Assembly (NCBI GenBank): GCA_003970805.2
Contig: CP051152.1
Span: 3,224,001-3,288,000, forward strand
Direction: 5' to 3'
DNA: 64,000 nucleotides
From: Undibacterium piscinae
GTDB lineage: Bacteria; Pseudomonadota; Gammaproteobacteria; Burkholderiales; Burkholderiaceae_D
Shown: piece by piece, positions 39,427 to 64,000 of the stretch
Position numbering within the stretch: position 1 is the first letter of the stretch
How the letters are laid out: every line of letters starts with the position of its first letter
Made by a program: the position numbers and the translations under genes
The notes under the pieces: model-generated
What the model was told of the DNA's origin: nothing
Databases searched by the model: none
What the model saw: the letters and a program-made list of their open reading frames with translations, nothing else

Positions 39427-40913
<1,487 letters not shown>

Positions 40914-40919
40914 ACGACT

Positions 40920-41585
40920 ATGACGACTACGCCACACAATCAGCAACTGACTCTGGCCTTATCCAAGGGCCGTATTTTCGAAGAAACCCTGCCTTTGCTT
41001 GAGGCAGCCGGAATACGCGTAACAGAAGATCCGGAAACCTCGCGCAAACTGATCCTGGCAACCAATGATCCTGCGGTGCGCGTGATCATCGTGCGTGCCT
41101 CGGATGTGCCTACTTATGTGCAATATGGTGCAGCTGATTTCGGTGTGGCCGGTAAGGATGTCTTGCAAGAGCATGGCGGCGATGGCTTGTATCAACCGAT
41201 AGACCTGAACATCGCCCACTGCCGCATGTCGGTAGCGGTTTCGGAAGGTTTCGATTACGCCACCGCGGTACGGCATGGCGCACGTTTGCGGGTAGCCACC
41301 AAGTACACTGAAATCGCGCGCGAACATTTCGCCAGCAAAGGGGTGCACGTGGATCTGATTAAGCTCTACGGTTCCATGGAGTTGGCGCCTTTGGTCGGCT
41401 TGTCCGACGCCATCGTCGATCTGGTCAGCACCGGCAATACCCTGCGTGCCAATCATCTGGTGGAAGTCGAACACATCATGGAAATCTCTTCGCGCCTGGT
41501 GGTCAATCAGGCTGCGTTGAAACTTAAACGCGAACGTCTGCAACCTATACTCGAAGCTTTTGAGCGCGCTTCACAAGGAAAATAA
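40920..41585 (+). CDS. hisG: ATP phosphoribosyltransferase, short form
   Basis: First step of histidine synthesis. The 221-residue protein lacks the C-terminal ACT-like regulatory domain, so it is the HisG-S type, which by family knowledge needs HisZ; no hisZ is in the window. Motifs: [27 protein letters not shown], and the PRPP loop [15 protein letters not shown]. Its stop TAA overlaps the hisD start by one base. Confidence 0.96.
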
Positions 41586-42925
41586 TGTCCGAACTTAACT
41601 CTCTTCCGAAGCGCCAGTTGATTGCCCGTCTCGATGCCAGTCAGGAAAATTTTTCTGAACATCTCGCCAGCCTGCTGGCCTTTGAAGCGAGTGAAGATGA
41701 GGCGATTGATAGCACCGTAGCGCAGATCCTTGCCGACGTAAAAAAACGTGGCGATGCGGCCGTGCTGGAAACCACGAATCGCTTTGACCGGTTATCGGCC
41801 AATAGCGTAACGGATCTGGAGATTGGTCAGGCAGAACTGCAGGCGGCATTGGCTAGCTTGACGCCTGAGCGTCGTCAGGCGCTGGAAATGGCGGCACAAC
41901 GCGTGCGCGCCTATCACGAAGTGCAAAAAAACGAATGTGGCTCGGCCGGCTTTAGCTATACCGAAGCCGACGGTACCGTGCTGGGGCAAAAAGTAACGCC
42001 CTTGGATAGAGTCGGCATTTATGTGCCGGGCGGCAAGGCAGCGTATCCTTCATCGGTGTTGATGAATGCGATTCCGGCCAAGGTTGCCGGTGTCGCTGAA
42101 ATCATTATGGTCGTGCCCACTCCGGATGGCATCAAGAATCCCTTGGTGCTGGCAGCTGCCGCCATCGCAGGGGTGGATCGCGTGTTTACCATAGGCGGTG
42201 CGCAAGCGGTTGCGGCCTTGGCGTATGGTACCGCGACGATACCGCAAGTCGACAAGATCGTCGGCCCGGGCAACGCCTATGTGGCGGCAGCCAAGCGCCG
42301 GGTGTTTGGTACCGTAGGCATAGACATGATCGCCGGGCCTTCCGAAATCCTGGTGATTTGCGACGGCACTACCGATCCGGATTGGATTGCCATGGATCTG
42401 TTTTCCCAGGCCGAGCATGATGAGCTGGCGCAATCGATATTGCTGTGCCCTGATGCCGCTTATCTCGATGCGGTCAGTGCCAGCATAGAAAAACTGCTGG
42501 GCGACATGCCGCGTCACGAGATCATCCGTACTTCGCTGGCCAATCGCGGCGCCCTGATCAAGGTGCTTGATATGCAGCAAGCCTGTGATATCGCCAATAG
42601 TATCGCTGCCGAACATCTGGAAATCTCTACCGAAAACCCACAGCATTGGGCGGACCGGATACGCCATGCCGGTGCCATGTTCCTCGGACGTTTTTCATCC
42701 GAAGCCTTGGGCGATTATTGCGCCGGGCCTAACCACGTGTTGCCGACTTCACGCACCGCACGCTTCTCCTCGCCTTTGGGCGTCTATGATTTTCAGAAGC
42801 GTTCGTCGATGATTTTTGTTAGCGAGCAAGGTGCCCAAAGTTTAGGCAAGGTTGCTGCTGAACTGGCGTACGGCGAAGGTTTGCAGGCACATGCCCGCAG
42901 CGCCGAGTACCGTTTGAAATCCTAA
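41585..42925 (+). CDS. hisD: Histidinol dehydrogenase
   Basis: Zinc enzyme doing the last two oxidations of histidine synthesis. The 446-residue protein carries the family signature [10 protein letters not shown] and [17 protein letters not shown], plus [21 protein letters not shown] with catalytic and zinc-site histidines. The length is normal. The operon is interrupted after this gene by a hairpin and a DNA methyltransferase gene. Confidence 0.97.
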
Positions 42926-42933
42926 ATCAGTAA

Positions 42934-43006
42934 GCCTGAGACCTAATGTTTACGGGCCTTCCCAGCCTATCTGGCCGGAAAGGCGCATGGGGATTGCGTC
43001 TCAGGC
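42934..43006. repeat. Large stem-loop between hisD and the methyltransferase gene
   Basis: Perfect 9-bp outer stem GCCTGAGAC (42934-42942) with GTCTCAGGC (42998-43006). The 55-base interior is GC-rich and can pair further (GGCC segments). There is no T run, so it is not a classical terminator. It may be a processing site, a structured leader or an insertion scar. Confidence 0.6.
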
Positions 43007-43074
43007 ATGTGTAATATTGATTTTCCGAATAATGATGAGGGCAAGCGACTGCAGCAAGGCGCACAGATCAATCC

Positions 43075-44226
43075 ATGACGAGCCATATCAATACAATTTT
43101 CAATGAAGATGCTCTGCTGGGGTTGGCGCGTATTCCAGACGGCAGTATTGATTTAATTTTGACCGATCCGCCCTATAGTTTGGGTAAGGATTACGGCAAC
43201 GACTCCGATAAGCAAGCCGCGGCAGATTATCTGGCCTGGACCGAGCGCTGGATCGATGCGGTGTTACCCAAGTTAAAGCCCGCAGGCTGCCTGTACATCT
43301 TTTTGACCTGGCGCTATTCGCCGGAAATTTTCGTGATGCTGAAACAGCGCATGACGATGTTGAACGAAATCATCTGGGACCGGCGGGTGCCGTCCATGGG
43401 CGGTAGCACCAGAAGTTTTTCTTCCGTGCACGATACCATAGGATTTTTCGCCAAGGCCAAGGGGTATTTTTTCGACCTTGATGCGGTACGCATTCCTTAC
43501 GATGCGCAAACCAAGAAGGCGCGTTCGCGTTCGATTTTTATCGGAGCCAAATGGCTGGAGCTAGGCTATAACCCCAAGGATCTGTGGAGTGTTTCCAGGA
43601 TACACAAGGAAAATCCAGAGCGCGCCGATCATCCGACGCAAAAGCCGCTGGAGATTATAGAGCGCATGGTGTTGGCGTCCTGTCCGGCCGGCGGCATTGT
43701 GCTTGATCCGTTTATGGGCAGTGGCACTACCGCCGTTGCGGCCAGTCGCTGCGGTCGTGACTTTGTCGGTTTTGAATTAAATCCCGGCTATTGCGAGATT
43801 ATCCAAAGCCGTCTTGCCTCAGCCGAAGCGCATAGAGTTGATCAGAATAATCAACCGACCGAACCGGTGCGCGCCAAGCTCACCAAGCTCTCCAAGCTCA
43901 CTAAACCTGCGAAAGCAGTAAAGGCAACTAAGTTAGTTAAGGCGGTCAAGCCAGTGAAGGCAGCCAAACCAGCCAAGCTAGTTAAAGCCAAGGCAGGCCA
44001 AGCGGCCAAGCCCGGTGTCAAAAAAACTAAGCTTCTCAAGCTTCCTGAGTCGGATTCGGTAATTGCCCTATCCGATGTAGTGGTTAAGGCGGCTAGGACG
44101 GCTAAGGTGAATAAGGTGGCAAAAGCAAAGAAACCCGGAAAGAGCCTCAAAAAAATCGATGACGCTAGCGCGGATGCCGCAAGTGATGCAACAAGTGATC
44201 CGATCGCGCTGGCTGCTGCGGTATAG
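43075..44226 (+). CDS. Orphan beta-class DNA N-methyltransferase with histone-H1-like Lys/Ala tail
   Basis: 383-residue site-specific methyltransferase. Motif IV DPPY (residues 31-34) precedes motif I-like DPFMGSGTT (211-219), the order of beta-class N6-adenine/N4-cytosine enzymes; HPTQKP (186-191) also fits. The catalytic core ends near 250. Residues about 267-361 are a low-complexity Lys/Ala/Pro tail with repeated KPAK, KAVK and KLTK units, like bacterial histone-H1/AlgP tails. No restriction endonuclease is adjacent. It lies in the his operon, 149 bp after hisD and 27 bp before hisC. The recognition sequence is unknown. Confidence 0.9.
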   Translation: MTSHINTIFNEDALLGLARIPDGSIDLILTDPPYSLGKDYGNDSDKQAAADYLAWTERWIDAVLPKLKPAGCLYIFLTWRYSPEIFVMLKQRMTMLNEIIWDRRVPSMGGSTRSFSSVHDTIGFFAKAKGYFFDLDAVRIPYDAQTKKARSRSIFIGAKWLELGYNPKDLWSVSRIHKENPERADHPTQKPLEIIERMVLASCPAGGIVLDPFMGSGTTAVAASRCGRDFVGFELNPGYCEIIQSRLASAEAHRVDQNNQPTEPVRAKLTKLSKLTKPAKAVKATKLVKAVKPVKAAKPAKLVKAKAGQAAKPGVKKTKLLKLPESDSVIALSDVVVKAARTAKVNKVAKAKKPGKSLKKIDDASADAASDATSDPIALAAAV

Positions 44227-44253
44227 ATATTTAGAAAAAGTGAGTAAGAACTT

Positions 44254-45324
44254 ATGTCCTTGATTGCCAATATTATCCGTTCTGAAGTGCGGGACCTGTC
44301 CGCCTACCATGTGCCGGATTCAGCTGGTTTCGTAAAACTCGATGCGATGGAAAATCCGTATACGCTCAGTACCGAAATGCAGCAAGCCTTGGCCGAGCGA
44401 CTGGCGCGGGTCGGGCTTAACCGTTATCCGGTACCAAGTTATAGCGCTTTAAAAAGCGCGATTAAGCGCCAACTGGGCGTGCCGCCAGACTATGATCTGG
44501 TGTTGGGTAACGGCTCCGATGAATTGATCTCCATGGTTTCGGTGGCCTGCGCCAAACCTGGTGCCAAGGTGCTCGCGCCGGTGCCAGGCTTCGTGATGTA
44601 CGCGATGTCAGCACGTCTGGCCGGCATGGAGTTTGTCGGTGTACCATTAAATGCCGATCTGAGCTTGGACGCTGCGGCGATGCTCGCTGCCATCGCCGAA
44701 CATCAGCCTGCCATTATTTATCTGGCCTATCCAAATAATCCTACCGGTACTTTGTACGATACCGCAGATATAGAGGCGATTTTGCGTGCCGTTGGCGATA
44801 CCGGCGTGGTGATTGTCGATGAGGCGTATCAGCCATTTTCACCTGTGAGTTTCATGTCGCGTCTGGCCGAGTTTGATAATCTGCTGGTGATGCGCACGGT
44901 GTCCAAGTTAGGCTTGGCCGGCATTCGCCTTGGTTATATGACGGGCTGCCCGGCCTTGCTCAATGAATTTGAAAAAGTGCGTCCGCCTTACAATATCAAT
45001 GTACTCACTGAGGCGGCGGCTGAATTTATGCTGGAGCAGGTTGCGGTACTTGATGCCCAGGCGGCGCAGATATGTCAGCAACGTAGCCTGCTGGCGGCTG
45101 CTTTGGCGGCGTTGCCGGGAGTGCAGGTTTTTCCGTCTGCGGCAAATTTCCTGTTGATTCGCGTGCCGAAAGCCGAACAAGTATTCGCTAAATTGCTGAA
45201 ACAAAAAATTTTAGTTAAAAATGTAGGTAAAATGCATGTGCTTCTGGAAAACTGCCTGCGTATTACCGTCAGCACGCCAGAAGAAAATTCCCTCTTTCTT
45301 GATGCGTTTAGTGCATCATTATGA
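44254..45324 (+). CDS. hisC: Histidinol-phosphate aminotransferase
   Basis: PLP enzyme of histidine synthesis. The 356-residue protein begins [16 protein letters not shown] and shows [25 protein letters not shown] and the PLP-lysine segment [12 protein letters not shown]. It follows the methyltransferase gene by 27 bp and is probably on the same transcript. Confidence 0.96.
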
Positions 45325-45371
45325 ATACATCCCTGTAATCAAAGCCTTTATAGCCTCAATAGCCGATAATT

Positions 45372-45968
45372 ATGCAAGCTCAACGCACCGCACAAGTTAC
45401 ACGTAATACCAATGAAACGCAGATCCGTGTCGCCATCAATCTCGATGGAACCGGTAAGCAAAAGCTCAATACCGGTGTTCCTTTTTTGGATCATATGCTC
45501 GATCAGATCGCCCGTCATGGCCTGATCGATCTGGAAATTGAAGCGGTCGGTGATCTGCATATCGATGCGCATCATACGGTCGAGGATGTCGGTATCACGC
45601 TGGGACAGGCGTTTGCGATCGCCATGGGTGACAAGAAAGGCATACGTCGTTACGGCCATGCCTACGTGCCACTCGATGAAGCCTTGTCGCGCGTAGTCAT
45701 CGATTTTTCCGGCCGTCCTGGTCTGGAATTTCATGTGCCGTTCAAGCGTGCCATGATAGGTTCGTTTGACGTCGACCTGACCCATGAATTTTTCCAGGGC
45801 TTTGTGAACCATGCTTTGGTTTCGCTGCATATTGATAACTTGCGCGGCGACAACGCGCATCATCAATGTGAAACCGTGTTCAAAGCTTTCGGTCGCGCTT
45901 TACGTATGGCATCCGAACTCGATGCGCGTTCGGCAGGAACCATACCGTCCACCAAAGGTAGCCTTTAA
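45372..45968 (+). CDS. hisB: Imidazoleglycerol-phosphate dehydratase
   Basis: Monofunctional HisB (198 residues), without the phosphatase domain of the enterobacterial fusion. Metal-binding signatures [24 protein letters not shown] and [14 protein letters not shown] are complete. Histidinol-phosphate phosphatase must be encoded elsewhere. Confidence 0.97.
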
Positions 45969-46001
45969 TCCTGAAATTCCTTGCTTCGCAAGTAGTCCAT
46001 T

Positions 46002-46640
46002 ATGAATAAAATTGTAGTTGTCGATTATGGTATGGGTAATCTGCGCTCGGTGGCGCAAGCCCTGCGTGCCGTGGCTCCCGAAGCCAATGTGATCATCTCT
46101 GGCGACGTCGCCGATATCAAGAGTGCCGACCGCCTGGTATTGCCGGGGCAGGGCGCGATGCCTGACTGCATGAGTAGTTTGCGCGAATCCGGTGTGCAGG
46201 ATGCCGTGCTGGAAGCGGCGCGTAGCAAACCCTTGTTTGGCGTTTGCGTCGGCGAGCAAATGCTGTTTGATGTCAGTGCGGAAGGCGATACGCCGGGCTT
46301 GGGATTGTTGCCGGGCAAAGTCGTGCGCTTTGATCTGCGCGGTCAGTTGCAGGCCGATGGCTCGCGCTATAAAGTTCCGCAAATGGGATGGAACCGGGTG
46401 CGCCAGGCGCAGCCTCATGCGCTCTGGCAAGGCATCGACGATGATGCTTACTTCTATTTCGTGCATAGTTATTTTGCACAACCAGAAAATGCTCTCCATA
46501 CCGTAGGCACCACAGATTACGGAACGACATTTGCCTGTGCGGTAGCGCGTGACAATATTTTTGCGACGCAATTTCACCCTGAAAAAAGCGCCGCCGCCGG
46601 TTTGCAGTTGTATAAGAATTTCGTACACTGGAAGCCTTGA
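46002..46640 (+). CDS. hisH: Imidazole glycerol phosphate synthase subunit HisH
   Basis: Glutaminase subunit that feeds ammonia to HisF. The 212-residue protein has [11 protein letters not shown] and the nucleophile Cys82 in [10 protein letters not shown]. The rest of the triad is in TQFHPEKS. A 65-bp spacer separates it from hisA. Confidence 0.97.
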
Positions 46641-46705
46641 AGCTGAGGCTCTTCGCTCCCTTCGTTTTTGTTAACCATTATTTACCCTTTTCATAGATAC
46701 TCATC

Positions 46706-47497
46706 ATGCTGCTCATTCCTGCCATCGACCTGAAAGACGGTCACTGCGTACGCCTGAAACAAGGAGACATGGATCAAGCCACGGTCTTCTCTGACGCTCC
46801 TGCCGATATGGCGCGACATTGGTTGGCGCAAGGTGCACGTCGCCTGCATCTGGTGGATTTAAATGGTGCGTTCGCAGGTAAGCCTGTCAATGAAGCTGCG
46901 GTCAAGGCGATTTTGCAAGCGGTACGCGACTATGCCGAAGAAACCGGCACCGAAGAAATTCCGGTGCAACTGGGCGGTGGCATTCGCGATCTCGACACTA
47001 TAGAACGCTATCTGAATGATGGCTTGTCCTACATCATTATCGGTACCGCTGCGGTGAAGAGCCCTGGCTTTCTGGCTGATGCCTGTGCTGCGTTTCCTGG
47101 TCAGATCATAGTCGGTATCGACGCCAAGGATGGCAAAGTCGCCACTGACGGCTGGAGTAAGTTATCCGGCCACGACGTAATCGATCTGGCGCAGAAGTTT
47201 GAAGGCTATGGCGTTGAGGCGATTATCTATACCGATATCGGCCGTGACGGCATGATGGGCGGCGTAAATATTGAGGCAACCGTAAAATTGGCGCAGGCGG
47301 TTAACATTCCTGTGATTGCCTCCGGTGGCGTACACGTGCTGGCCGATGTGGAAGCGCTGTGCGAGGTTCAGGATCAGGGAATTTCGGGTGTGATCTGCGG
47401 ACGTTCGATTTACGAGGGAACGCTCGATTTGTTGTCGGCACAGGATAGGGCTGACGAATTGAGCGGCGAAACCGATACTGAAGAAGAACCGATATGA
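46706..47497 (+). CDS. hisA: ProFAR isomerase HisA
   Basis: TIM-barrel isomerase acting before HisF. The 263-residue protein has catalytic Asp8 ([13 protein letters not shown]), [16 protein letters not shown], and [15 protein letters not shown] with the second aspartate. A 12-residue acidic tail (ETDTEEEPI at the end) overlaps hisF by 4 bp (ATGA). Confidence 0.96.
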
Positions 47498-48258
47498 CGC
47501 TGGCAAAAAGAATTATCCCTTGCCTGGATGTGACCGCGGGTCGTGTCGTTAAGGGTATCAATTTTCAGGAGTTGCGCGATGCCGGTGATCCGGTAGAGAT
47601 CGCACGTCGCTACGATGCTCAGGGTGCAGATGAAATTACTTTTCTCGACATTACCGCTTCCTCAGATGACCGTGATTTGATCCTGCCTATCATTGAGGCG
47701 GTGGCTTCCCAGGTGTTCATCCCGCTGACGGTAGGCGGTGGCGTGCGCTCCGTTGCTGACGTGCGTCGTCTGCTCAATGCCGGTGCCGATAAGGTTGGTA
47801 TCAATACTTCTGCTATTACCAATCCGCAACTGGTTGCCGATGCCGCACACAAATACGGTTCGCAATGCATCGTGGTAGCGATAGACGCCAAGCGGGTAGC
47901 GCCGGGAAAGTGGGAAGTGTATACGCACGGCGGTCGCAATGCGACCGGCCTTGACGCCGTTGAGTGGGCCTGCAATATGGCGCGTCTGGGCGCCGGAGAA
48001 ATCCTGCTGACCAGTATGGATAAAGACGGTACGCGTTCCGGATTTGACCTGGGTTTGACGCGCGCCGTATCGGATGCCGTCGATATTCCGGTGATTGCAT
48101 CGGGAGGTGTCGGCAATCTGCAGGATTTAGCTGACGGCATCAAGACAGGCGGTGCTGATGCAGTGTTGGCGGCGAGTATTTTTCATTTCGGCCACCACAC
48201 GGTACAAGAGGCAAAACAGTTTATGGCAGCACAGAATATTGCGATGAGGCTTGCATGA
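47494..48258 (+). CDS. hisF: Imidazole glycerol phosphate synthase subunit HisF
   Basis: Cyclase subunit; partner of HisH. The 254-residue TIM barrel has catalytic Asp12 in [15 protein letters not shown] and the second aspartate in VVAIDAKR. Also [12 protein letters not shown]. Overlaps hisA upstream and hisI downstream by 4 bp each. Confidence 0.97.
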
Positions 48259-48654
48259 GTTCAAAGTGGTTAAATAAGGTCAGATGGGATGAGTGCGGTC
48301 TGGTACCGGTGATTGCACAAGAGGCCAGCACCAATAAGGTGCTGATGTTTGCCTGGATGAACCGCGACGCGCTTGCTAAAACGGTTGAGCTCGGTGAGGC
48401 TGTCTACTGGAGTCGGTCCCGCAAGAAGCTTTGGCATAAGGGCGAAGAGTCCGGGCATATACAAAAGGTGCTGGAGATACGTCTTGATTGCGATGAAGAT
48501 GTGGTCTTGCTCACGATAGAGCAGGTCGATGGGATTGCCTGCCACACCGGACGGCACTCGTGCTTTTTTTCAAAAATTTGAAGGTGATGCCAGTGACGGT
48601 GAGTGGTTAGCGGTCGACCCTGTGCTGAAAGACCCTGAAAGTATTTACAAGTGA
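48255..48654 (+). CDS. hisI: Phosphoribosyl-AMP cyclohydrolase, frameshifted near its 3' end in a T7 run
   Basis: Zinc enzyme opening the purine ring in histidine synthesis. The body is intact: [28 protein letters not shown], and [13 protein letters not shown] with metal-binding cysteines. At the seven-T run 48564-48570 the frame shifts and stops at 48581. With six T's it reads [19 protein letters not shown] to the stop at 48652-48654, about 132 residues, overlapping hisE by 4 bp (GTGA). This matches the other overlaps of the operon and argues for a miscounted run. Confidence 0.93.
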
Positions 48655-59883: not shown

Positions 59884-60273
59884 ATATCCTCCGAATTTTC
59901 AAGCTCCGTTTATAAAATAAGCTGCTAAAAATACATGGAACTCCGATTTGAGTTTTTTTGCTATTAAAAAGTGTGTGAGTTCAAGTGAAAATTCTGAAGC
60001 GTCTCTTTTTTGACGAAAAAACAATTTATTTTGGGAAATTTCTATTCTGCAATTGCAAATAAATGTAATATGCCGGCGTAATTTTAATCCGCTTTATCTG
60101 GCACAGCCCAAGCCTTACCTGGCCACGGCGTTTTTTGCCACCCAATTCTCCGGAGAATGCAAATGCAAGCAGTCGCCTCAACCCCAAAACTCTTCGTTCT
60201 GTTCACGCAAATTTTCTTGCATTCCCTGTCCAGATCTTCAGGATGGAGATCGTTGACAGATACCAGGACACAC
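59884..60273. other. Spacer upstream of the giant repeat gene
   Basis: 390 bp, AT-rich to about 60070, then more GC-rich. It holds the start regions of two divergent genes. The frame of the downstream gene is open back to ATG 60157, preceded by GGAGA, which would add 39 residues before the signal peptide. No clear promoter pair was recognised. Confidence 0.45.
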
Positions 60274-63200
60274 ATGAAAGCAGTCTGGCTCACATTGCTT
60301 ATGCTGTTCAGCATGGCTGGTTCAAGCTTAGCTTATGCAGCAGCTCCACCAGCTTCTTGTACCATCAACATCACCAATACCGGTGCCGCCAGTTATACAT
60401 ACAATTATACGAATCAAGATTTAACGAATTGCGATCCGGGCGTGCACGGGATGGGATCGGGCGGGGGCGTATTCACCGATTCAAATGGGAATACCGGTGC
60501 AATTGGTACGAATGCCGGAGGGACCTTTCTTCCGAATAACGCGATGACCATCAACTACAACGGTTTTATCTATACCCCTCCAAGCATCGGGTATACCGGT
60601 GACGATACAGTGGTCATTTACTATCAGGATCAATTTACGGCAGAGTTTGGTCAGGTTACTTTAACCTTACATGTGACTGGCGCTGTCACGGTTCCAGGCG
60701 CACCAACCAGTGTGAGTGCAACGCCGGGTAATGCATCGGCCTCAGTCAGCTTCACTGCCCCAGGTTCGAACGGCGGTGCGGCCATCACCGGCTATACGGT
60801 AACCGCCAGCCCTGGCGGTGCAACAGCAACAGGGGCATCCAGCCCGATTAATGTAACGGGTCTGATTAACGGTACTGCGTACACATTTACCGTTAAGGCG
60901 ACCAATTCGGCAGGAGATAGTGTCGCGTCGACTGCATCGTCAGCTGTGACCCCAAGAACGGTACCGGGCGCGCCAAGCGCCGTGAGCGCGACCGCGGGGA
61001 GTACCACCGCCAGCGTCAGCTTTACGGCACCTGCTTCTAACGGTGGTTCAGCGATTACCGGTTACACCGTGACCGTGGTAGAGACTGGAGCGACCTTTGT
61101 TGGTGCCAGCAGCCCGATCAGTGTGACGGGTCTGACCAACGGTACTGCGTATACGTTTACAGCCAAGGCAACCAATGTCGCGGGTACCGGTACAGCCTCG
61201 GCCGCATCGACGGCAGTGACACCAAAGACAGCACAGACCATTACCTTCAATAATCCAGGCAGCCAGAACTTTGGTACCTCACCGACGCTGAGTGCCAGCG
61301 CCAGCTCGACTTTGCCGGTGACTTTTACCAGCGCTACCACTGGCGTGTGTACTGTCAGCGGCAGCACCCTGACTTTCGTGACAGCAGGTAACTGTACGAT
61401 CAATGCGAATCAGGCAGGTAATAGCACTATTTATGCAGCAACGCAGGTACAGCAAACCTTTACTGTCAACGCCATCGTACCGGGTGCACCGGCTGCGCCA
61501 ACGGCGACAGCGGGTGATACTACCGCCAGCGTGAGCTTTACAGTACCGGCGTCGAATGGCGGTTCTGCGATCACCGGTTATACCGTGACCGTGGTAGAGA
61601 CTGGCGCGACCTTTGGTGGTGCCAGCAGCCCTATCAGTGTGACGGGCCTGACGAACGGTACTGCGTATACGTTTACGGTGAAGGCAACCAACAGCGCGGG
61701 TACCGGTACAGCCTCGGGCGCATCGACGGCAGTGACACCCAGGGCAGCGCAGACCATTACCTTCAATAATCCAGGCAGCCAGAACTTTGGTACCACGCCG
61801 ACGCTGAGTGCTAGCGCCAGCTCGACTTTGCCGGTGACTTTTACCAGCGCTACGACCGGTGTGTGTACCGTCAGTGGCACAACACTGACGCTGGTCACGG
61901 CTGGCACTTGTACCATTAATGCCAATCAGGCTGGTGATGCCGCCTACGGTGCTGCAACCCAGGTACAGCAGACGTTTGCGATTGCCGCCGTGGTACCGGG
62001 CGTACCAACAGCTGCCAGTGCAACGGCAGGAAATACATCAGCAACGGTCACATTCACCGCTCCGGCATTTATCGGTGGCGCAGCCATCACCGGCTATACC
62101 GTCACCGTGAGTCCGGGGGGCGCGACCTTCAGCGGTGCAGCGAGTCCGATCAATGTGACGGGGCTGACTAACGGTACAGCGTATACCTTCACCGTTAAAG
62201 CGACTAACAGCGCCGGTACCGGCACGGCATCAAGTGCATCAGCCGCAGTGACACCGCAAGTCGTACAGACCATTACTTTTAACAATCCTGGGAGCCAGAA
62301 CTTTGGTACGACACCGACGCTGAGTGCTAGCGCCAGCTCGACTTTACCGGTGACTTTTACCAGCGCTACGACCGGTGTGTGTACCGTCAGTGGCACAACA
62401 CTGACGCTGGTCACGGCTGGCACTTGTACCATCAATGCCAATCAGGCTGGTGATGCCGCCTACGGCGCTGCAACCCAGGTACAACAGACGTTTGCGATTG
62501 CCGCCGTGGTACCGGGTGCACCAACTGGCGCAACTGCAACCGTGGGCAATACTTCTGCCAGCGTAGCATTTACTGCGCCGGCCTCAAATGGTGGTGCAGT
62601 AATTACCGGCTATATCGTAACAGTGGTGGAGACAGGTGCGACCTTCAGCGGTGCAGCGAGTCCGATCAATGTGACGGGGCTGACTAACGGTACAGCGTAT
62701 ACCTTCACCGTAAAAGCGACCAACAGCGCAGGTAACAGCAGTGCATCGGCTGCATCCGGCGCGATCACACCTAAAGCTAGCCAGACGATCAGCTTCACCG
62801 CACCGGTAACTGGCGTCGTGGGTGGCGTGGTGAATGTGACGGCAATGGCCAGTTCCGGTTTGCCGGTCAGCTTTAGTTCTGTGACTTTGCCGGTTTGTAC
62901 AGTGACAGGCTCCAGCGTAAATCTGATCGCAGCGGGTACTTGTACGATCAATGCAGATCAAAGTGGTAATGCAAGCTTCGCAGCTGCAACTCAGGTCAGC
63001 CGTTCTTTCACGGTGGGTTCTACGCCTGTACCAATGCTGAATTTCACTCAGGCCGGTCCTTTGCAAATCACTTTAGGTAATAGCCTGAACAATGCCGTGA
63101 GCTCAAGCCTTAGCGGTGGCAGCTACGGTGCGATCAGCTACAGCAGCAGCAATGCAGCTGTAGCGACCGTCGATGCAAGCGGTAAAGTAACACCGGTTGC

Positions 63201-64000
63201 GGGCGGCAGCGTCGTGATCACTGCGACACAAGTTGCTGTTACCGGCATCAATGCCCAGGCTGTGGCCAGTTATAGCCTGACGGTTGGTAAAAATGTGCAA
63301 GCTGCACTTACATTGACAGCAGACAAACTGGCGATTTTCAAAGTCACAGGTAAAGCTACGCTGACTGCATCCGGTGGTTCTGGCAACGGTGCAATCAGTT
63401 TCGCCGTCAGCTCCGGTGCCTGCAGTTTGTCCGGCAATGTCCTGTCGGCTGGCAGCACAGCAGGTAATTGTGTGGTGACTGCGACCAAAGACGCTGATGC
63501 GAATTTCAGTGCGGTCTCAGCCAGCATAACGATACAGATTCAGAATCTGACCGCAGCCAGCGTAACGATTGGTACTACGCAGTTTCAGGTATTGGATGGG
63601 GTGCCAGTCACACTGACGGCAGCGGTTACACCGGCTGCCGCTACTGGTACCATCAGTTTTATGGATGGAACGGTGAACCTGGCAACGGTCACACTGACGA
63701 ATGGTTCGGCCTTGCTGGTCGCGAAAAACCTGGCCATTGGTGTTCATACCATTACTGCGGTGTATTCGGGTGATGCGTTTACTGCGCCAGGTAATAGTGT
63801 AGGCATTACGGTGACGGTGGGTAAGCGTCCTGACCCAACAGTTGACTCAGTGGTGAAAAACACGGTGGTCGCGGCAGCAAATATCAGTCAGCGCTTCACT
63901 CAGGCACAGATGACGAATATTTACAGCCACGTTCAGGTTCTGCACCATGACTTTTCGATCAAGAATCGTTTTGGTATCAACTTTAATGCACCAGGTCTGG
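60274..64000 (+). CDS. Very large secreted fibronectin-III/Ig repeat protein (3' end outside window)
   Basis: Open to the window end (1242 codons and counting). Start ATG 60274 behind AGGACACAC. A signal peptide (about 1-24, ending AYAAA) precedes a cadherin-like module with GYTGDDTVVIYYQ (about 30-139). Five FN3 domains start at residues about 140, 230, 402, 574 and 746, each ending in GTAYTFTxKATN; four alternate with an Ig-like module containing QNFGT and CTINANQAG. Bacterial Ig-like domains follow to about residue 1180. The last 60 residues (RFTQAQMTNIYSHVQVLHHDFSIKNRFG, in parts) look like the linker before an autotransporter barrel, which would lie beyond the window. Probably a surface adhesin. 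Confidence 0.85.
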   Translation, partial: MKAVWLTLLMLFSMAGSSLAYAAAPPASCTINITNTGAASYTYNYTNQDLTNCDPGVHGMGSGGGVFTDSNGNTGAIGTNAGGTFLPNNAMTINYNGFIYTPPSIGYTGDDTVVIYYQDQFTAEFGQVTLTLHVTGAVTVPGAPTSVSATPGNASASVSFTAPGSNGGAAITGYTVTASPGGATATGASSPINVTGLINGTAYTFTVKATNSAGDSVASTASSAVTPRTVPGAPSAVSATAGSTTASVSFTAPASNGGSAITGYTVTVVETGATFVGASSPISVTGLTNGTAYTFTAKATNVAGTGTASAASTAVTPKTAQTITFNNPGSQNFGTSPTLSASASSTLPVTFTSATTGVCTVSGSTLTFVTAGNCTINANQAGNSTIYAATQVQQTFTVNAIVPGAPAAPTATAGDTTASVSFTVPASNGGSAITGYTVTVVETGATFGGASSPISVTGLTNGTAYTFTVKATNSAGTGTASGASTAVTPRAAQTITFNNPGSQNFGTTPTLSASASSTLPVTFTSATTGVCTVSGTTLTLVTAGTCTINANQAGDAAYGAATQVQQTFAIAAVVPGVPTAASATAGNTSATVTFTAPAFIGGAAITGYTVTVSPGGATFSGAASPINVTGLTNGTAYTFTVKATNSAGTGTASSASAAVTPQVVQTITFNNPGSQNFGTTPTLSASASSTLPVTFTSATTGVCTVSGTTLTLVTAGTCTINANQAGDAAYGAATQVQQTFAIAAVVPGAPTGATATVGNTSASVAFTAPASNGGAVITGYIVTVVETGATFSGAASPINVTGLTNGTAYTFTVKATNSAGNSSASAASGAITPKASQTISFTAPVTGVVGGVVNVTAMASSGLPVSFSSVTLPVCTVTGSSVNLIAAGTCTINADQSGNASFAAATQVSRSFTVGSTPVPMLNFTQAGPLQITLGNSLNNAVSSSLSGGSYGAISYSSSNAAVATVDASGKVTPVAGGSVVITATQVAVTGINAQAVASYSLTVGKNVQAALTLTADKLAIFKVTGKATLTASGGSGNGAISFAVSSGACSLSGNVLSAGSTAGNCVVTATKDADANFSAVSASITIQIQNLTAASVTIGTTQFQVLDGVPVTLTAAVTPAAATGTISFMDGTVNLATVTLTNGSALLVAKNLAIGVHTITAVYSGDAFTAPGNSVGITVTVGKRPDPTVDSVVKNTVVAAANISQRFTQAQMTNIYSHVQVLHHDFSIKNRFGINFNAPGL
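60961..63018 (+). repeat. Four tandem 516-bp units inside the repeat protein gene
   Basis: Unit starts at 60961, 61477, 61993 and 62509 are spaced exactly 516 bp (172 codons): one FN3 plus one Ig-like module each. Copies two and three are nearly identical over 61750-61992 against 62266-62508. The fourth unit diverges in its Ig-like half. A single FN3 (60691-60960, 270 bp) precedes the array. Confidence 0.93.

Follow-up and report, generated by a model that had tools for sequence, protein, structure and literature searches.

A probable domesticated orphan DNA methyltransferase of the GTWWAC lineage housed in the histidine operon of Undibacterium and its relatives

RESULTS

A methyltransferase gene between hisD and hisC

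The window analyzed here is a stretch of 64,000 nucleotides of the Undibacterium piscinae genome (contig CP051152.1, positions 3,224,001 to 3,288,000), and all coordinates refer to it. It contains a run of genes that all lie on the + strand in the order murA-hisG-hisD-methylase-hisC-hisB-hisH-hisA-hisF-hisI, with the following features.

39663..41585, + strand: murA and hisG, the first two genes of the run (NCBIfam)
41585..42925, + strand: hisD, next gene upstream of the methylase (TIGR00069, E 1.5e-157)
42926..43074, + strand: spacer between hisD and the methylase, 149 bp
42934..43006, no strand: palindrome within the spacer whose 34-nt arms are 71% complementary; portions of it recur elsewhere in the genome
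42948..42953, no strand: GTTTAC, the spacer's single GTWWAC site, without conservation among relatives
43075..44226, + strand: whole methyltransferase gene, ATG start, 383 aa, PF01555 on residues 25-244
43165..43176, + strand: catalytic motif DPPY, residues 31-34 (from the translation), invariant in a 21-row alignment
43705..43731, + strand: SAM-binding motif DPFMGSGTT, residues 211-219 (from the translation), all but P212 invariant in the 21 rows
43846..43878, + strand: stem of the tail, NNQPTEPVRAK (residues 258-268), with P261 and K268 unchanged across the 21 rows
43879..44223, + strand: Lys/Ala/Pro-rich tail, residues 269-383, no Pfam domain, length and sequence variable
44254..45324, + strand: hisC, next gene downstream (TIGR01141, E 1.5e-97), 27 bp past the methylase stop
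45372..48581, + strand: hisB, hisH, hisA, hisF and hisI, downstream part of the run (NCBIfam)

In a Pfam scan, the product matches PF01555 with an E-value of 6.6e-57 and 193.4 bits against a cut-off of 26.7. Motif order with DPPY before FxGxG is characteristic of the beta class, and with the domain match above its cut-off the product is a beta-class N6/N4 DNA methyltransferase. The 21 rows used to assess motif conservation were chosen from among 120 homologues listed. The gene, both motifs, the tail and the position between hisD and hisC on the same strand, all described in the original prediction, are borne out by the ORF, its translation, the domain match and the TIGR00069 and TIGR01141 assignments of the two neighbors. 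Elsewhere in the window, an open-ended ORF of at least 1281 aa (60157-63999) carries 516-bp direct repeats in four copies.

Distribution of the histidine and tryptophan operon positions

The placing within the histidine operon proved to be no local peculiarity once relatives were included. The methylase is present in all 43 genomes of the genus, with hisD directly upstream in 43/43 loci (L001-L020, L131-L153) and hisC following in 42, the contig of L136 ending before that point. From other relatives we kept 80 loci of 87. In all 57 titled Oxalobacteraceae, Burkholderiaceae or Burkholderiales (L021-L077), hisD lies upstream of the methylase, and the downstream gene is hisC in 52 and hisB in five; the remaining 23 (L078-L100) gave no hisD, hisC or hisB match on the flanking DNA examined. 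The cluster lacks hisC, with the methylase followed by hisB, in L042, L061, L063, L064 and L065. Within the family, 158 of 195 genomes carry the methylase (E <= 1e-60), and three of the best 30 loci fetched from these 158 (L109, L119 and L120, all of genus g42) have it outside the his genes. In L109 and L119, it lies near an ORF that we take to be minC-like. Across the order, the gene was found in three of 100 genomes, all three in the family of Undibacterium; this sample is too thin to map the gene because Burkholderia carries it as well.

Empty versions of the his slot are also present among the genomes studied. We located hisD in 30 genomes, one of them a control (L162) with the methylase in the slot and the other 29 comprising methylase-minus family members, members of other families and five genomes in which it lies at another place; four of the five belong to genus g42, and the fifth, G084 of g43, carries the methylase but has none within 1.5 kb of hisD. 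No methylase occurs within 1.5 kb of hisD in any of the 29; hisC directly follows hisD in 20 of these loci, and the other nine are without a clear adjacent hisC.

A second housing was found in the tryptophan operon. All five betaproteobacterial loci outside the group (L083, L085, L095, L160 and L161) have the order trpB-methylase-trpA-accD, with trpF upstream in four and L095 starting inside trpB (trp gene names for L160 and L161 are from NCBIfam). The eight family genomes tested all have trpB next to trpA with no methylase between them, and genome G145 likewise has none at this place. The his and trp housings are mutually exclusive among the loci sampled. The his slot as originally described stands, with the amendment that the trp operon of Burkholderia and Caballeronia houses a methylase of the same lineage; the trp housing has already been published for BCAM0992, and the literature searched yielded no description of a his housing. 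One methylase-minus relative (L281, genome G113) has a second, divergent trpB with 53% identity.

The hisD-methylase junction

We measured 101 hisD-methylase junctions, with some genomes counted twice, our own 149-bp junction excluded and start codons chosen by script. Among these, 30 overlap or abut (25 of them by 4 bp), 69 are no longer than 30 bp and 19 are at least 80 bp. The hisD and methylase genes overlap in Massilia, and the 149-bp spacer with its repeat makes co-transcription less secure here than there, so that the two genes may be less tightly linked in this clade than in Massilia. Searched against its own genome, the segment 42926-43015 gave 21 matches, itself included, at E <= 0.01. 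A different palindrome made of CGCAGAG units occurs in the same spacer of L007, L011, L014, L015, L017, L027, L030, L031, L033, L036 and L104, some of which represent the same genomes. The junction seems to collect repeats.

Two candidate regulatory elements in the spacer were considered and rejected. The hairpin is not supported as an attenuator, with a z-score of -1.87 and parts that recur across the genome. Autoregulation through the GTWWAC site as a conserved element was dropped since, among 106 loci with 74 distinct spacers, the site is confined to U. piscinae itself (L001, L101) and a single relative, whose genome is represented by both L008 and L026. The Rfam scan of the window returned tRNA only, and a search of positions 40700-45500 found 2 promoter-like sites compared with 4.3 in shuffled sequences and 9 terminator-like sites compared with 6.0 (sd 2.6).

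Enzyme lineage and likely target

The best solved structures for the methylase are 8urk, 9c3s and 9c3t together with 9c3u, with an E-value of 2e-120 to 8urk over residues 8-249. A Burkholderia cenocepacia chromosome-2 protein (L161) is 68.6% identical to the methylase over residues 8-252; L160 and L161 are two taken out of eight records at 60-80% identity. We take the four structures to be those of M.BceJIV and M.BceJIV to be BCAM0992, which fits the match of L161 to PDB 9c3u (556 bits, 240/241 residues) and the title of a cited paper. That title, of a structure paper on M.BceJIV, stands in the reference list of PMC11842806. According to PMC7364216, GTWWAC was attributed to the B. cenocepacia orphan BCAM0992 on the basis of its deletion and SMRT sequencing, and the gene is found on the second replicon, flanked by trpB and trpA. 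For Ralstonia, PMC5390034 describes a methylome-based assignment of GTWWAC to an orphan methylase conserved across Burkholderiaceae and a strong bias of the sites to the upstream regions of genes, and a deletion mutant of the Ralstonia methylase served as unmethylated control in PMC11460718.

The methylase thus shares with M.BceJIV/BCAM0992 a 68.6% identical core, orphan status and a place within an amino-acid biosynthesis operon, and differs from it in occupying the hisD-hisC instead of the trpB-trpA slot and in its long basic tail, which BCAM0992 is without. M.RsoORF1982P (RSc1982), the Ralstonia GTWWAC enzyme, is likewise described as an orphan methylase conserved across Burkholderiaceae; the upstream site bias reported for it is not found in the part of the U. 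piscinae genome analyzed. CcrM and the PRK11524 type, which we take to be YhdJ, have the same PF01555 beta-class fold, yet the methylase falls outside the CcrM equivalog at only 105.8 bits against the NCBIfam NF050803 cut-off of 830, and scores 157.2 bits against the PRK11524 cut-off of 292. Given the kinship of its core to the published GTWWAC orphan lineage of Burkholderia and Ralstonia, GTWWAC is the likely target of the Undibacterium methylase.

We also analyzed the distribution of GTWWAC in 464 kb of the U. piscinae genome and in 400 kb from each of two relatives, of which one has the methylase and the other lacks it, using our own gene calls, which cover 75-81% of the DNA and leave the intergenic figures rough. 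In U. piscinae, the 24 kb of sequence that lies upstream of genes, within 150 bp of their starts, holds 6 sites and the 346 kb of coding sequence 129, a density ratio of 0.67 that is no significant depletion compared with seven like motifs (p 0.7); observed/expected values are 0.69 in coding and 0.44 in upstream intergenic sequence. An upstream enrichment of the Ralstonia type was therefore not found in the 464 kb. In both relatives the upstream bias is close to 2-fold; it therefore does not follow the presence of the methylase gene. A genome signature of GTWWAC was rejected as well, as eight motifs of like composition in the three genomes gave no pattern that follows the gene. Upstream enrichment is a property of Ralstonia genomes and not a defining one for the enzyme.

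Restriction-modification kin

The methylase is immediately preceded by a nuclease-like ORF, or by fragments of such an ORF, at 15 of the 23 more distant loci (L078-L100), and three of the eight without are trp-housed betaproteobacterial MAGs. The best aligned nuclease piece is at least 188 aa in ten loci and just 72-110 aa in L082, L086, L087, L090 and L098, where the partner, given these short lengths, looks broken or mis-assembled. The five fragmented cases look as if becoming orphan, with assembly error a possible cause. Matches of the nuclease-like proteins to the NCBIfam model of the UpaP162 type II nuclease were below threshold in four of five tested, the best reaching an E-value of 1.5e-6 and 28.1 bits against a cut-off of 100. 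A structure model of the nuclease-like ORF from ten sequences (pLDDT 84.7) matches the fold of R.SwaI first (E 5.9e-7), followed by HincII and EcoRV. The HincII structures listed carry GTTAAC or GTCGAC, which fits a partner for a GTWWAC methylase.

The methylases of these type II pairs with a SwaI/HincII-fold nuclease (15 loci among L078-L099) are 65-74% identical to that of U. piscinae and fall in the same tree; the pairs differ in the upstream nuclease-like ORF and in tails that are mostly not basic. The original prediction of a methylase without a restriction partner was upheld for the kin-type nuclease, which is found in none of 195 family genomes, the same query being positive in three of three control genomes. 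No nuclease gene adjoins the U. piscinae methylase, whose neighbors are his genes. In the methylase tree, the his and trp clades group together against the restriction-modification rows (support 82/82), with the long row L091 in between; the midpoint root was set for drawing only. From this arrangement, in a tree rooted by midpoint only, and from the lack of the kin-type nuclease in the family, we infer that the enzyme may be a domesticated restriction-modification methylase whose restriction half was lost.

Two methylase kinds in one slot

The methylase tree includes 116 of 122 rows, with identical cores and rows below 225 aa omitted, and 10 of the 25 loci fetched from other genera of the family were among the 122. 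One clade, A, has 52 rows (support 98/91) and includes this strain, U. nitidum, U. amnicola, Massilia, genus g42 and others. The other 39 his-locus rows, including U. curvum, U. rugosum, Herbaspirillum and others as well as L070, are labeled B, which does not designate one supported clade. In comparison, a tree of five flanking proteins (90 rows, with L059 omitted as too short) unites the Undibacterium rows (42 rows, support 99; this set of 42 differs from the 42 without L035 below). When the genus rows were held as one methylase clade, the AU test gave p 0.0359 for all 43 and its strongest result, p 0.0057, for the 42 without L035; adding genus g42 gave p 0.0328, and adding g42 and L076 gave 0.0447. 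These values are optimistic because the groups were defined with the tree already in view. On these comparisons, a single methylase clade for the genus appears moderately rejected, and in-place replacement of methylase alleles within Undibacterium is plausible.

The basic tail

Residues 269-383 (115 aa) include 27 K, 26 A and 7 P. Among 361 proteins predicted by a crude gene caller in 464 kb of the genome, 328 have at least 115 aa, and the methylase is the only one of these with a 115-aa window this rich in Lys. Histone H1-like and AlgP proteins have Lys-Ala-Pro tails, and the likeness to them drawn in the original prediction stands for composition and KPAK-like pieces; it does not extend to a domain, since Pfam (E <= 0.001) matched PF01555 alone and nothing over the tail. 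The tail here also differs from those proteins in being carried by an enzyme and in its fast turnover. That it could be a frame artefact or confined to this strain is refuted by a separate protein, P0002, which is 90% identical to the methylase over the full length, tail included. Indels occur between these 90%-identical proteins.

We counted as tail the residues beyond position 252 in 114 of the 116 tree rows (L160 and L161 left out). The search for tail-bearing homologues that had been proposed shows that a basic tail marks the A clade at the his locus: of the 49 A-type his-locus rows (median 55 aa), 46 carry a tail of positive net charge, as opposed to one of 39 B rows (L076; median 8 aa). 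Elsewhere, the tail is net positive in three of three g42 rows, four of 20 rows from other lineages and three of three short trp-type tails from MAGs. Tail length in the A clade ranges from 13 to 131, the longest being that of U. piscinae itself, and an NQPTEPVR-type motif is present in 26 of 49 A-type and three of three g42 rows and in none of 62 others. Since almost no other his-locus methylase has the basic tail, the tail is not needed for the shared core function. The tail is most likely a disordered, non-specific DNA tether, a reading suggested by the retention of charge while the sequence turns over.

DISCUSSION

We consider it probable that the gene between hisD and hisC encodes a domesticated orphan N6-adenine GTWWAC methylase of the M.BceJIV/M.RsoORF1982 lineage, housed in the his operon, with its restriction half lost and its A-clade tail acting as a tether. 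The ancestor would have been the modification half of a type II pair whose restriction half had a SwaI/HincII fold. After loss of the restriction half, the modification gene would have settled in an amino-acid operon: for Burkholderia and its kin the trp operon, between trpB and trpA, and for Oxalobacteraceae the his operon, between hisD and hisC. It would most likely be transcribed with the his genes, and GTWWAC would be methylated genome-wide, most likely as housekeeping or regulatory marks and not as restriction protection. In the A clade, the basic tail, often behind an NQPTEPVRAK stem, would tether DNA and so raise local concentration or processivity.

Several alternatives concern the enzyme itself. 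PADLOC calls it a type II methyltransferase (E 3.2e-145), as expected of a live restriction-modification system; the missing kin-type nuclease throughout the family and the housekeeping neighborhood common to relatives make such a system, or a phage-derived element, extremely improbable, and all 1571 matched phage records are below 60% identity, the best among those listed at about 36%. A target sequence other than GTWWAC would agree with a genome that lacks a GTWWAC signature and with the 31% divergence from the characterized enzyme. Specificity in beta-class methylases lies between the catalytic motifs, though, and this stretch is well conserved between the methylase and 8urk, while the restriction-modification kin have a HincII-like partner, so that we regard another target as very unlikely. 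As for the tail, its range of lengths in the A clade next to a median of 8 in other his-locus methylases, and the indels between 90%-identical proteins, are what functionless, drifting low-complexity sequence might look like. Drift alone would hardly retain net positive charge in nearly all A-type rows despite the turnover, nor does it account for the stem motif or for the lack of a comparable Lys-rich stretch in the other predicted proteins long enough to hold one; we therefore favor the tether and judge pure drift somewhat unlikely.

The meaning of the operon slot is a separate question. It could reflect functional coupling, in which the methylase follows amino-acid starvation control and mark density reports the supply of histidine or tryptophan. 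One lineage is found in two amino-acid operons, the position is kept across the relatives fetched with mostly tight spacing, and control by the trp operon was also proposed by the authors of the BCAM0992 study (PMC7364216). Against this stand genus g42, which carries the gene outside the his operon, the trpB-trpA junction of G145, which is empty too, the long and repeat-bearing spacers in the clade of U. piscinae and the lack of a conserved GTWWAC site in the spacer, and we find coupling unlikely. The slot may instead be neutral, a steadily transcribed junction that tolerates insertion, with the gene kept solely because the methylase is needed. The clean fit of the insertion between undamaged genes, the same flank order in methylase-less relatives and the use of different operons in different groups lean toward this explanation, which we hold to be slightly on the probable side; by itself it leaves unexplained why both slots are amino-acid operons, but two operons are too few to weigh. 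A broader proposal, that the lineage is housed in trp and his operons so that methylation capacity follows amino-acid supply, with long-standing alleles (A with its basic DNA-tethering tail, the others lacking it) exchanged at the his slot between closely related bacteria, seems quite unlikely to us.

Dam, CcrM and other orphan methylases influence gene expression, and the control of their own level is often unclear. The housing of what would be the same marking enzyme under trp control in some groups and his control in others offers a natural experiment, with free-living relatives available for deletion. Because enzymes with and without the basic tail occur in the his slot, what such a tail does for a DNA methylase can be tested directly. 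In these bacteria, the supply of amino acids may possibly be linked to the marks on their DNA.
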